Source: Caldifarciminota bacterium
GTDB taxonomy: Bacteria > Hydrothermota > Hydrothermia > S141-80
DNA: 5,752 nt
Direction of reading: 5' to 3'
Assembly (NCBI GenBank): GCA_015490255.1
Contig: WFYF01000272.1
Coordinates: 1 to 5,752 of the forward strand
Positions 2,758 to 5,752 of this stretch are shown here, one piece after another. The translations under genes were made by a program, and so were the position numbers. Below the pieces are notes generated by a model that was not told the origin of the DNA, ran no database searches, and worked only from the letters and a program-made list of their open reading frames with translations. Position 1 is the stretch's first letter; each line of letters starts with the position of its first letter.

Positions 2758-2762
2758 AAATG

Positions 2763-4388
2763 ATGTTTCCCAGTTTTCTCATCGGGCTTCTCCTTGCAGG
2801 AATGCCCCCGTCCATGTCTTCCGAACTCCTTGATCGGCTGCCCCGGGACCTGGGCACCGCCCGGCTGGAAATCCCGGGAGATCACGCCCTTTACCGGGCA
2901 GTTGAAGAGGCATGGAACCGGAATGACGCCGGCGGGGTGCAGGCCGCCCTCACAGCCCTGGAAGAAGCCGGTCTCACGATTTCTGAATTCGGTCTCGCCT
3001 TCACTGAACCACGTCCTCTCGCGGGTCTCGGGGTGAACGGAGGCCCTATCCCGATATCCGACTCCCTCAACGTCCGGGAGGTGGAACTCGTGGCCGATCC
3101 GAACACCGGCAATCTCGTGGCCTTCCTGGCCGTGGACACCTCTGCAACCTCCACGTCTTTCCACATCCTCACCCTCCTTTCCACCGACGGGGGCAACACC
3201 TGGATGGAAACCTATGACTGGGCCGGGCTCAACCCATACAAAATCAGCGCCTTTTACGGCGCGGTCTCCGGAACCACCTTCGCCTATGTGGCGGATATTT
3301 TTGGAACAGGAAGCGCCCGGCTCCGTCGCTTTCCCTTCGCCACCGGAGAATACGATGCCGCCTTCGGCAACGCCATCGTGACCACCTCCGCGGACACGCT
3401 GAAAGAACTCTCTGCTTTCACCAACGACGGTGGAAGCTTCGGTTATTTTCTCTATCTCCATTCAAACGGCGAGGTGGAATACCGGTATTCTTCTCTGGAC
3501 ACCCCCTCCTTTGGCACCTATGCCACGGGCGTAACCAACGCAGACCACGGCCTTTCGGGAACCTATGTGACCGGCCAGATCTTTCCGGTGATCTTCGCCT
3601 ATACCGACGCCACCGGTGACACCCTGTTCCTGCGCTGGCGCACGGGAGGCACCGCCTTCGGCGGGACCTTTTTCACCGGAAGCGCATACAACGGCATTTT
3701 TCAGACCTCGGTGGCGGCCCTGGCGGACACGGTGCTTATCGCCTATGACACTTATGACACCACACAGAATGCCTATGTGATCCGTTATCGCATCTCCTAT
3801 GGGGACACCACGTCCTTTCTCACCGGCACCATCAGCACGGATCTGACGCGGGGGCAGCGCTCTCCCCGAGTGGTGGAAAACGACGGGCAGTTTGCCGTGT
3901 CCTGGATCTTCTTCGGTGGAGTGGAGCCGGATTCCCTCGTTCTGCGCACCCGCCTGGTGGGATCGGCCGCCTGGTCCAGCCCCTGGACGTTTCCCTACGA
4001 CTTCCAGAGCACACCGGATCAGGATCTCGCGCCCATGGGGGGCGGGACCTGGGGATTCCTGGCCATTGATGAGGGACGGGGAGGTCAGGCCCTCTTCATG
4101 GCCTCCACCTGGACGGAAGTGGCCGAACCGGTGAATAGCACTCCGGTGAGCCGGATCCGGCTGGACCGGACCGTGGTTTCCCGGAGGGGCGCGCTCCGCC
4201 TGGTTGTTCCCCGGATGGGCCGGATGAAAGTTTCTCTTCTCAATGCGGCGGGGCGGCAGATGGGTGTGGTGTATGAAGGACCAGCCCGGGAAACGGTGCT
4301 GCGGGCACCGGGCCGTGCCGGGGTGTATTTCCTCCGGGTGGAACGCCGCGGCACGTCGGACATCCAGCGGTTCGTGGTGCTGCCCTGA
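2763..4388 (+). CDS. Predicted secreted Asp-box protein with C-terminal FlgD-like/type-IX-like sorting domain
   Basis: The 541-residue product has a hydrophobic N-terminus (FPSFLIGLLLAG, residues 2-13) that can act as a signal peptide, although it lacks the usual positive charge. A short helical segment (20-80) leads into a long beta-rich body of many short strands rich in T, Y, F, G and S. It contains one clear Asp-box, STDGGNTW (140-147), the turn motif of sialidase-like beta-propellers. The body (about 100-450) could therefore be a propeller with poorly conserved blades, but no catalytic sialidase residues can be assigned. The last 80 residues (about 463-541) match the pattern of C-terminal secretion domains: basic linker, MKVSLLNAAGRQMG, then GRAGVYFLRVERRG and a final FVVLP strand. 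In families with such tails the domain directs transport across the outer membrane or cell-surface attachment. The gene stands alone between its own promoter and terminator. The specific ligand or substrate is unknown. Confidence 0.82.
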   Translation: MFPSFLIGLLLAGMPPSMSSELLDRLPRDLGTARLEIPGDHALYRAVEEAWNRNDAGGVQAALTALEEAGLTISEFGLAFTEPRPLAGLGVNGGPIPISDSLNVREVELVADPNTGNLVAFLAVDTSATSTSFHILTLLSTDGGNTWMETYDWAGLNPYKISAFYGAVSGTTFAYVADIFGTGSARLRRFPFATGEYDAAFGNAIVTTSADTLKELSAFTNDGGSFGYFLYLHSNGEVEYRYSSLDTPSFGTYATGVTNADHGLSGTYVTGQIFPVIFAYTDATGDTLFLRWRTGGTAFGGTFFTGSAYNGIFQTSVAALADTVLIAYDTYDTTQNAYVIRYRISYGDTTSFLTGTISTDLTRGQRSPRVVENDGQFAVSWIFFGGVEPDSLVLRTRLVGSAAWSSPWTFPYDFQSTPDQDLAPMGGGTWGFLAIDEGRGGQALFMASTWTEVAEPVNSTPVSRIRLDRTVVSRRGALRLVVPRMGRMKVSLLNAAGRQMGVVYEGPARETVLRAPGRAGVYFLRVERRGTSDIQRFVVLP

Positions 4389-4413: not shown

Positions 4414-4438
4414 GGGGCGGCGCAGACCGCCCCTTTTT
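4414..4438 (+). terminator. Intrinsic terminator of the sorting-domain protein gene
   Basis: GGGGCGG (4414-4420) pairs perfectly with CCGCCCC (4427-4433) across the six-base loop CGCAGA, followed at once by five T. It begins 25 bases after the stop codon at 4388. Confidence 0.92.
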
Positions 4439-4515: not shown

Positions 4516-4589
4516 GCCCTCGTAGCTCAGCAGGACAGAGCGGCGGCTTCCTAAGCCGCAGGTCGGAGGTTCGAGTCCTCCCGGGGGCG
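4516..4589 (+). tRNA. tRNA-Arg (anticodon CCT)
   Basis: This is a full cloverleaf of 74 bases. The acceptor arms are GCCCTCG (4516-4522) and CGGGGGC (4582-4588), with one T-G wobble. U8 and A9 are at 4523-4524. The D stem is GCTC/GAGC (4525-4528, 4538-4541) with a nine-base loop. The anticodon stem is GCGGC/GCCGC (4543-4547, 4555-4559) with loop TTCCTAA and anticodon CCT at 4550-4552. The variable loop has five bases, and the T arm is GGAGG-TTCGAGT-CCTCC (4565-4581). A at position 20 (4535) is the known arginine identity base. The discriminator base is G (4589). The 3' CCA is not encoded and must be added enzymatically. It reads AGG codons, a minor class in this GC-rich DNA. Confidence 0.97.
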
Positions 4590-4649
4590 CGGCTTTTCCC
4601 TCCGATTCTGACTCCAGCAGGCCGATACCGGTGGGGATGGTGGAAATCC

Positions 4650-4676
4650 GGTGGATTTCAGATCTCCACCTTTTTT
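4650..4676 (+). terminator. Probable intrinsic terminator of tRNA-Arg
   Basis: GGTGGA (4650-4655) pairs with TCCACC (4665-4670) over a nine-base loop, followed immediately by six T (4671-4676). It lies 60 bases after the tRNA. A competing hairpin, GAAATCC (4643-4649) with GGATTTC (4653-4659), overlaps it, so formation may be conditional. Confidence 0.7.
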
Positions 4677-4702
4677 CCATCACCTGGAGGACCGGGGTTT
4701 TC

Positions 4703-4724
4703 CACCGTCATTTCGGTGAATTTT
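4703..4724 (+). terminator. Weak terminator-like hairpin on a TTCCACC box
   Basis: CACCG (4703-4707) pairs with CGGTG (4714-4718) over the loop TCATTT, then AATTTT. Five pairs and a short T-run make a weak terminator at best. It is built on the repeated box. Confidence 0.3.
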
Positions 4725-4786
4725 CTCTGGACCCCGCAAGAAAATGCGCCAGAATTCCCGCAGCGGGAAATCCTCCCTTCTGATTC

Positions 4787-4810
4787 CACCATCCCTCTGG
4801 TGAGTTTTTT
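4787..4810 (+). terminator. Terminator-like hairpin on a TTCCACC box
   Basis: CACCA (4787-4791) pairs with TGGTG (4798-4802) over six bases, followed by AG and six T (4805-4810). The same box can instead pair as GATTCCACC (4782-4790) with GGTGGAATC (4817-4825). That nine-base perfect dyad would enclose and disrupt this terminator. Confidence 0.4.
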
Positions 4811-4859
4811 ATCTCCGGTGGAATCTCTGTTTTCCGGTGTTTCTCCCCCCTCAACTTCT

Positions 4860-4894
4860 GGTGGAAAACTGAATTCCACCGACATTGCGGTGGA
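4860..4894. repeat. Three-part inverted repeat with two mutually exclusive hairpins
   Basis: GGTGGAA (4860-4866) pairs perfectly with TTCCACC (4874-4880) across seven bases. Alternatively, TCCACCG (4875-4881) pairs perfectly with CGGTGGA (4888-4894) across six bases. The middle arm is shared, so only one hairpin can form at a time. Confidence 0.65.
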
Positions 4895-5036
4895 GTGTCT
4901 GTGTTCGTATATGTCCCGGAGTTTCCAAATCCCCGGGTTTGCCGCAAACGGCATCCCTTCCACAGGACAGGGTTCACTGTTTATTCCACCGTTTTCTTTG
5001 TGGAGTGTGTGTTTTCCATCAGAATTCCACCACCCC

Positions 5037-5066
5037 TTGACAGGTTTGGCGCGGGCGCTGTATCTT
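5037..5066 (+). promoter_or_regulatory. Sigma70-type promoter of the window-edge gene
   Basis: A perfect TTGACA (5037-5042) is followed after 18 bases by TATCTT (5061-5066, four of six matching). The -35 starts six bases after the last TTCCACC box (5025-5031). The predicted start, about seven bases past the -10, is the A of the ATG at 5073. Confidence 0.65.
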
Positions 5067-5072
5067 TCAGGC

Positions 5073-5752
5073 ATGCATGGCGCCCGGTGGTTCGGTTTCG
5101 CCCTGTGGAGTGTGTGGTCGGTTTCGTGTGCCTATCCCATGCTTTCTTCTCCCCCTTCCCCCCGGGGCGGAGAAGGGCTTGAAGTGGGTGTGATGGGCGC
5201 AGCCACACCGGTGACCCGGGTTGAATATGCCTCCTGTGCAGGCACAGAGCGGACAACGTGGCGGGAGCGCTATCAGTGGGGCCAGGGAGAGGGAGTTTTC
5301 CGGTGGACCACCACCGCCGGCAGCACGCGTGTGGTTTTTCATCTCGGATACGGCTGGGTGGGTATGTGGCGAGAGCTGGATGGTCCTTACCGGATGGCGT
5401 TCTGGGAGAACGCGTGGTATGCTTCTCCAGAGGTTTCTTTCGTGTTTCCCCGGTACCGGTTTCTCCTGGGTGTGGGGGCCCGGCCAGTTCTGTGGAAATC
5501 TTCTTTGCCTTCAGGTGCTCCTTTTTCGGGACTGACATCCACGTCTTTCCCCTATCCGGTGTTTTACGCAGTTCCCTATATGGAGGTGGGGGAGAACCTG
5601 GATCTTGTACTTTCTGTGTTTTCTCCCGGCATGGCGCTGGTGTGGCGGAAAGGGGGTCTTGAGATTTCGGGATTCTGGAGTGTGGGCGCCTATCCGGCTG
5701 TGGTGCTGGCGACCTGGCCTCTCGCTCTTTTCTTTCCCAACGATGCAGTGGA
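5073..5752 (+). CDS. Predicted exported, aromatic-rich beta-barrel-like protein, 3'-partial
   Basis: From ATG 5073 the frame runs 226 codons without a stop and leaves the window, so the gene is cut at its 3' end. The first 20 residues form a plausible signal peptide: a short basic start (MHGAR), the hydrophobic core WFGFALWSVWSV, and a likely signal peptidase I site SCA/YP after residue 20. C19 lacks a proper lipobox. The mature part is rich in W, F, Y and G with alternating strand-like segments, for example TRVVFHLGYGWVGMW, PEVSFVFPRYRFLLGVG and LVLSVFSPGMALVW. This resembles outer-membrane beta-barrels, but I recognise no family. No Shine-Dalgarno precedes the ATG, and the promoter places the transcript start at the ATG. 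Later in-frame ATGs (5139, 5193) would remove the signal peptide. The frame is also open upstream to an ATG at 4911, but that stretch looks non-coding. Confidence 0.72.
   Translation, partial: MHGARWFGFALWSVWSVSCAYPMLSSPPSPRGGEGLEVGVMGAATPVTRVEYASCAGTERTTWRERYQWGQGEGVFRWTTTAGSTRVVFHLGYGWVGMWRELDGPYRMAFWENAWYASPEVSFVFPRYRFLLGVGARPVLWKSSLPSGAPFSGLTSTSFPYPVFYAVPYMEVGENLDLVLSVFSPGMALVWRKGGLEISGFWSVGAYPAVVLATWPLALFFPNDAV

Follow-up and report, generated by a model that had tools for sequence, protein, structure and literature searches.

Eight exact copies of the heptamer TTCCACC, five on the + strand and three on the - strand, are crowded into 393 bp (4639-5031) between a tRNA-Arg gene and the promoter-like site of an orphan reading frame. 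We tentatively propose that they form a single-locus, locally duplicated array of half-sites, a predicted protein docking platform that would control the orphan gene. Speaking for protein sites are the observations that the cluster lies far above the genome's own rate for this box, that a promoter-like site follows directly after the last box, and that the boxes are more alike than their flanks.

Genomic setting and density of the boxes

The window, meaning the whole stretch of 5,752 bp analyzed here, is an entire contig (C272) of a draft assembly (1.70 Mb; 1,701,893 bp in 353 contigs, 78% complete). Its features outside the array are as follows:

1-486, + strand, ferredoxin-type frame (Pfam scan of the extended frame)
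483-1685 and 1682-2641, + strand, two oxidoreductase subunits (POR_N, PFOR_II and TPP_enzyme_C by Pfam)
2760-4388, + strand, unclassified 542-aa protein
4414, terminator-like site between the 2760-4388 gene and tRNA-Arg
4516-4590, + strand, tRNA-Arg, anticodon CCT (ARAGORN; Rfam RF00005)
5037-5066, + strand, promoter-like site TTGACA-18-TATCTT (consensus match only, 10 of 12 positions)
5073-5752, + strand, orphan reading frame (truncated at the contig end, with 226 aa visible)

The two best named matches of the oxidoreductase beta subunit come from Candidatus Hydrothermota and WOR-3 drafts (62 and 66% identity), closely followed by Zixibacteria and other phyla (61-62%), which weakly suggests a position near Hydrothermota. 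At E values up to 1, the tRNA is the sole Rfam match in the window, with no further known RNA. About 480 bp between 4595 and 5072 lack a coding-like frame, none exceeding 0.6 bits (codon score, 120-bp steps), in agreement with the initial annotation that no coding gene explains the boxes. Across the array and into the orphan frame (4600-5600), T outnumbers A on the + strand (AT skew -0.25 to -0.39).

Of 397 candidates from a large protein set, none is homologous to the orphan product at E≤1, and its frame has no match in 40 relatives. One weak paralogue occurs in its own genome (contig C334, L036 2516-3163; E 2.6e-5); it also lies at a contig end, with its upstream region beyond the contig. 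The codon bias of the orphan frame is weak, with a lower and less even score than in two further gene segments from the window, and a single-sequence structure prediction gave a pLDDT of 32.8, too low to interpret.

All eight boxes described by the initial annotation, five direct and three inverted in a non-coding stretch, were recovered, with + starts at 4700, 4784, 4874, 4984 and 5025 and - starts at 4639, 4817 and 4860. The longer shared flanks that it pointed out are likewise present, GAATTCCACC twice (4871 and 5022) and GTTTTCCACC twice (4697 on the + strand and 4860 on the - strand), and the last box, ending at 5031, does adjoin the -35 element, which starts at 5037.

The claimed excess over chance also stands when measured against the genome itself. 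TTCCACC occurs 1113 times in 1,701,893 bp (555 for the reversed control), a rate at which 393 bp would be expected to hold 0.257 copies; the Poisson P(≥8) is 3.8e-10, or about 1.6e-6 when multiplied by the number of such windows. Shuffling gives 1.56 copies for the whole window against 16 observed, a figure that overstates the excess because TTCCACC is common in this genome and commoner outside intergenic stretches; the genome rate is the better yardstick because 8 of the 16 window copies sit outside the array, within coding frames. Local density was assessed in a sample of 79 of the 353 contigs, taken whole (512,433 bp, 30% of the assembly), the remainder being covered by pattern, DNA and model searches only. 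With intergenic DNA called by a rough codon-score method, the box is not equally frequent elsewhere: other intergenic DNA carries 0.37 per kb (23 in 62.5 kb) and DNA outside called intergenic stretches 0.74 per kb, against about 20 per kb in the array.

In this sample the runner-up among TTCCACC clusters has 3 per 393 bp; among other 7-mers, leaving out those of period 1-3, the runner-up reaches 6 per 393 bp. The array is, simple repeats aside, the densest 7-mer cluster in the 79 contigs. The contrast is weaker when one mismatch is allowed: the array then holds 14 boxes in 482 bp, and 4730 overlapping windows average 3.5 and reach 12 at most. The spaced form TTCCACC-N6-10-GGTGG is not clearly enriched genome-wide (19 versus 15 in the control).

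Architecture and probable kinship of the units

The array is composed of the following elements:

4638-4682, imperfect palindrome A, 45 bp, with four boxes (- 4639, - 4650, + 4664, + 4675) at steps of 11, 14 and 11
4639-4645, - strand, exact box, outer box of palindrome A
4700-4706, + strand, exact box that opens palindromic unit B (4700-4721), its degenerate opposed half, 15 bp further along, reading GGTGAAT
4784-4790, + strand, exact box that opens palindromic unit C (4784-4805), its degenerate opposed half, 15 bp further along, reading GGTGAGT and followed by a T run
4817-4823, - strand, exact box opposed to the 4784 box and 33 bp downstream of it
4860-4866, - strand, exact box, first of a triplet at 4860 (-), 4874 (+) and 4889 (-, one mismatch), steps 14 and 15
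4864-4906, imperfect palindrome E, 43 bp, centre TTCCACC-N8-GGTGGAG
4874-4880, + strand, exact box, left half of palindrome E
4958, one-mismatch box apart from the groups
4984-4990, + strand, exact box that opens palindromic unit F (4984-5005), whose second half reads TGTGGAG
5014-5031, + strand, tandem pair of TTCCATC (5014) and exact TTCCACC (5025), 11 bp apart, ending 5 bp before the -35

With up to one mismatch, the array thus comprises 14 boxes, arranged in partly palindromic groups in which steps of 11, 14 and 15 bp recur, as in the group F-G, where + 4984, a degenerate - half at 4999, + 5014 and + 5025 follow at steps of 15, 15 and 11. Four palindromic units fit TTCCACC-N8-(G/T)GTGRN, and the spacings between palindromes (about 50, 84, 90 and 110 bp) show no helical phasing.

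Sequence common to the units reaches beyond the box. Over 34 nt, units B, E and F are 74% alike, 14 of 36 unit comparisons attain p 0.01 or less (200 dinucleotide shuffles each, uncorrected), and CWG lies within 7 nt upstream of six of the eight exact boxes compared with 55 of the 352 other boxes of the sample (Fisher p 4e-4), a post hoc feature picked after inspection. These common flanks speak for a relationship by duplication among the units.

Aligned with one another, the four units have identical left boxes but drifting right halves (GGTGAAT, GGTGAGT, GGTGGAG, TGTGGAG); the left box is invariant by choice, the units having been selected for it, so the argument that the box is what has been retained is partly circular. 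Changes on both sides of a pair occur in 1 of 32 pair cells, and 84.4% of cells pair, against 28-56% when the partner is slid. Column shuffles reach the observed pairing values in 242 of 500 cases, which does not separate the hairpin and protein readings. The score for an opposed half-site peaks at +15 (26 versus a mean of 15.4 over 33 distances, about 2.5 sd), with a runner-up of 25 at +33; three of the eight exact boxes (4700, 4874, 4984) have such a half-site at +15 with at least 5 of 7 matches, and three others (4639, 4817, 5025) have none at +15 or -14.

Searches across the genome and its relatives

A covariance model built from the four array units (R1) found in its own genome the four founders (E 1.5e-5 or better) and then nothing better than E 0.37, with 150 of 671 first-look candidates scored. 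Nine weak matches were inspected, and no more than two boxes per 393 bp surround any of them. Among 41 genomes, one other belongs to the same family (G001) and no other to the same genus; in G001 the model gave nothing below E 3.96 (150 of 638 first-look candidates scored). The G001 contigs carrying a homologue of the 2760 gene (C305, 59% identity) and a match to the tRNA-Arg (C316, 89%) have at most two boxes per 393 bp. The array appears absent from G001, where no homologue of the orphan gene was found either.

The initial annotation had also raised a family of hairpin repeats inserting after tRNA genes. Of 29 tRNA loci, only the present one carries the cluster: the other 28, several truncated by contig ends and some overlapping, have at most two boxes per 400 bp. 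Because the model of the array units finds no credible further copy and the cluster is missing from these tRNA loci, the results support neither a dispersed repeat nor one linked to tRNAs, and in the parts of the genome examined by sequence the cluster appears to have no credible second copy. A tRNA-linked integrated element is likewise not supported, with no integrase domain among the contig frames scanned by Pfam and, in the 40 of 45 own-genome candidates scored, no partial match confined to the 3' end of the tRNA. Neither of the two collections searched for a phage or plasmid origin gave a match.

The same genome does carry a large palindrome family of unrelated sequence, roughly GGGGTCCCC-A-NNN-AATTCC-loop-GGAATT-NNN-T-GGGG, with stems of about 13-15 bp (for example L262 279-729, L249 1137-1544, L212 5446-5673, L036 227-318 and L267 118-217). 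In 17 aligned copies the CCCC/GGGG ends are invariant and six inner pairs vary, with 40 of 170 cells compensatory and no G-U pairs, an absence that is partly built in because the copies were picked by Watson-Crick pairing. A model of this family (R2) has at least 129 strand matches at 68 or more places on 32 or more contigs (150 of 1332 candidates scored), with up to six places per contig. On C292, five copies immediately precede RNase P RNA, and on C334, C128 and C319 copies stand upstream of a tRNA gene. In G001 it has three matches at two places, and in the other 19 of 20 relatives searched none at E up to 0.01, so that the genome holds a large palindrome family not shown by those 19. Against the array, its best E is 0.5, not a credible match. 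A separate sequence, TTATACACA, is found no more than about 35 bases from a contig end on C110, C153, C170, C205, C246 and C288, which suggests a repeat that breaks the assembly.

Readings of the array

In the reading that we favor, a palindrome of ~37-45 bp would have been duplicated locally, the box, rather than the hairpin, would be what is kept, and the half-sites would be read by a DNA-binding protein, probably a dimer because many half-sites are opposed. The array would then act as a multi-site docking platform upstream of the promoter-like site at 5037-5066, which is predicted to be used, and the bound protein would control the downstream orphan gene. Protein sites are favored over hairpins because the box repeats exactly while the partner halves drift, and because exact boxes occur without a partner, boxes for which a pure hairpin function has no need. 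Against protein sites, the pairing of the four units is largely intact, as the hairpin reading expects; Pfam recognized no regulator gene in five frames and one extended frame of the contig, the array model gave no credible second site in the own genome or in G001, and the G001 contigs with the 2760 homologue and the tRNA-Arg match show no conserved cluster; moreover, the palindromes are unphased, the promoter is a consensus match, and the orphan frame has weak codon bias and no homologue. The operator array suggested initially is thus compatible with the promoter position and with boxes more alike than their flanks, whereas no regulator on the contig and no second site were found to accompany it. 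Multi-site operators resemble the array in having opposed half-sites at recurring spacing, the last beside the -35, but the array differs by its many, widely spread sites for a single target: eight to fourteen sites over 390 bp are a large number for a regulator of one target. A literature search for GGTGGAA as an operator or binding site gave no such site by title.

The strongest rival, because the genome does gather palindromes between genes, is a cluster resembling the bacterial interspersed mosaic element (BIME), that is, a palindrome multiplied locally without a specific regulatory role; we regard this as somewhat doubtful. Flanks shared beyond the box, the 84.4% pairing, the unphased spacing and the many intergenic clusters of the unrelated palindrome at similar spacings (such as the five copies on C292) all fit it. 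They are offset by the restriction to one locus in the search with the array model, by the lack of a credible array match to the dispersed family, and by compensatory changes that are few in the array (1 of 32 cells in four units versus 40 of 170 in 17 copies of the dispersed family, sets that differ in size and selection). The Y1 transposase domain (PF01797) was found in neither of two genomes, the own assembly (78% complete) and G001, against 5 of 14 controls. BIME and repetitive extragenic palindrome (REP) clusters, as described for example in PMC2817692, are likewise short intergenic palindromes in both orientations, several per cluster; the array differs from them by its single locus, the transposase not found, and a shared 7-bp box with drifting partner halves. 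Of the REP/BIME features, palindromic 20-40 bp units in clusters are present, and genome-wide dispersal and the Y1 transposase were not seen in these searches.

Tandem intrinsic terminators that end tRNA-Arg transcription before the next promoter, the box being a by-product of hairpin duplication, are an unlikely explanation for the array as a whole. Between 4380 and 5200, both strands together hold seven terminator-like sites versus 2.1 (sd 1.3) in shuffles; four of them coincide with palindromes of the array (B and C, plus E on each strand) and the rest lie at 4414, 4471 and 5047. On each strand the array region also folds better than any of its 100 shuffled versions (z -4.1 and -3.4), as is expected of any inverted-repeat region. 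Palindrome A, which the terminator scan missed because its loop of 9 exceeds the limit, forms an RNA hairpin of -19.8 kcal/mol (z -3.85) with TTTTTT (4671-4676) after the inner stem, although this T run is partly paired in the predicted fold; whatever the remaining array does, palindrome A is plausibly a terminator for tRNA-Arg. Against terminators, the tail of E is T-rich but interrupted, F is not among the scan sites, and folding is weak in unit C (-6.5 kcal/mol, z -1.5) and in unit F (-7.9 kcal/mol, z -2.0). Terminators need pairing and not an identical box, partnerless boxes add nothing to them, and the boxes extend to the next -35.

A replication origin or origin-like iterons, with the boxes read by an unusual DnaA, had been suggested as well, and we consider this quite improbable. 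In its favor are some 480 bp without a coding-like frame but with many boxes in both orientations, a GC content of 51% in the array against 62% in the window, and the location inside the array of the 50-bp GC minimum of the whole window (38%, at 4976); the 100-bp GC of the array, however, never falls below 47%. The skew of the 5.7-kb contig changes sign several times, the contig being too short to inform. The oriC consensus is TTWTNCACA and D433, H434 and T435 are DnaA specificity residues, as given in PMC7561715. The window contains no exact consensus box; within the array two boxes are one mismatch away, both TTTTCCACC. The initial annotation had likewise noted a one-base difference from the consensus. 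Clusters of oriC boxes, as described in PMC7561715, likewise lie in non-coding DNA in both orientations, and the array departs from them by a last base C for A, by dnaA lying elsewhere, and by a short, moderate GC dip. Exact TTWTNCACA forms no cluster elsewhere in the 78%-complete assembly (74 copies, no two within 500 bp), which leaves the origin reading some room, and the densest one-mismatch spot of the 30% sample (five per 400 bp on C97) lies in a coding frame.

The position of dnaA, proposed initially as a check, speaks against an origin here: the gene lies on contig C93 with other neighbors, and the single canonical box upstream of it (TTTTCCACA) ends CCACA, not CCACC. Its frame (L220, about 4573-5815) is split between two frames, by sequencing error or a real break. 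In the DnaA proteins of this genome and G001, RHHTTV stands in place of the RDHTTV of the solved structure 1j1v, which we take to be E. coli DnaA on its box; 2z4r, presumably T. maritima DnaA, has RSHPVV and differs at further contact residues. The DnaA motif of Thermotoga ends CCACC, an end shared by the shorter array box. That DnaA recognizes a 12-bp motif, according to PMC7561715. In G001, some 1.9 kb separate the 3' end of dnaA from the homologue of the array-adjacent 2760 gene. These residues and this neighborhood are hints rather than support, because the DnaA change is also present in G001, where the searches revealed no array. The more specific scenario, in which a DnaA with H for D reads CCACC-ending boxes and dnaA has moved while the origin stayed by its former neighbor, is more improbable still. 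No literature match was found for TTCCACC as a DnaA box, and the paper on a cultured WOR-3 strain (PMC12285271) has no passage on repeats, dnaA or intergenic DNA. If the array were an origin, a changed DnaA box would be paired with a changed DnaA contact residue; if its boxes were only multiplied palindromes, the locus would show how palindromes arise between genes in this genome. If, as we tentatively favor, the boxes are protein sites, an uncultured lineage would have a control region of unusual density for a single target.
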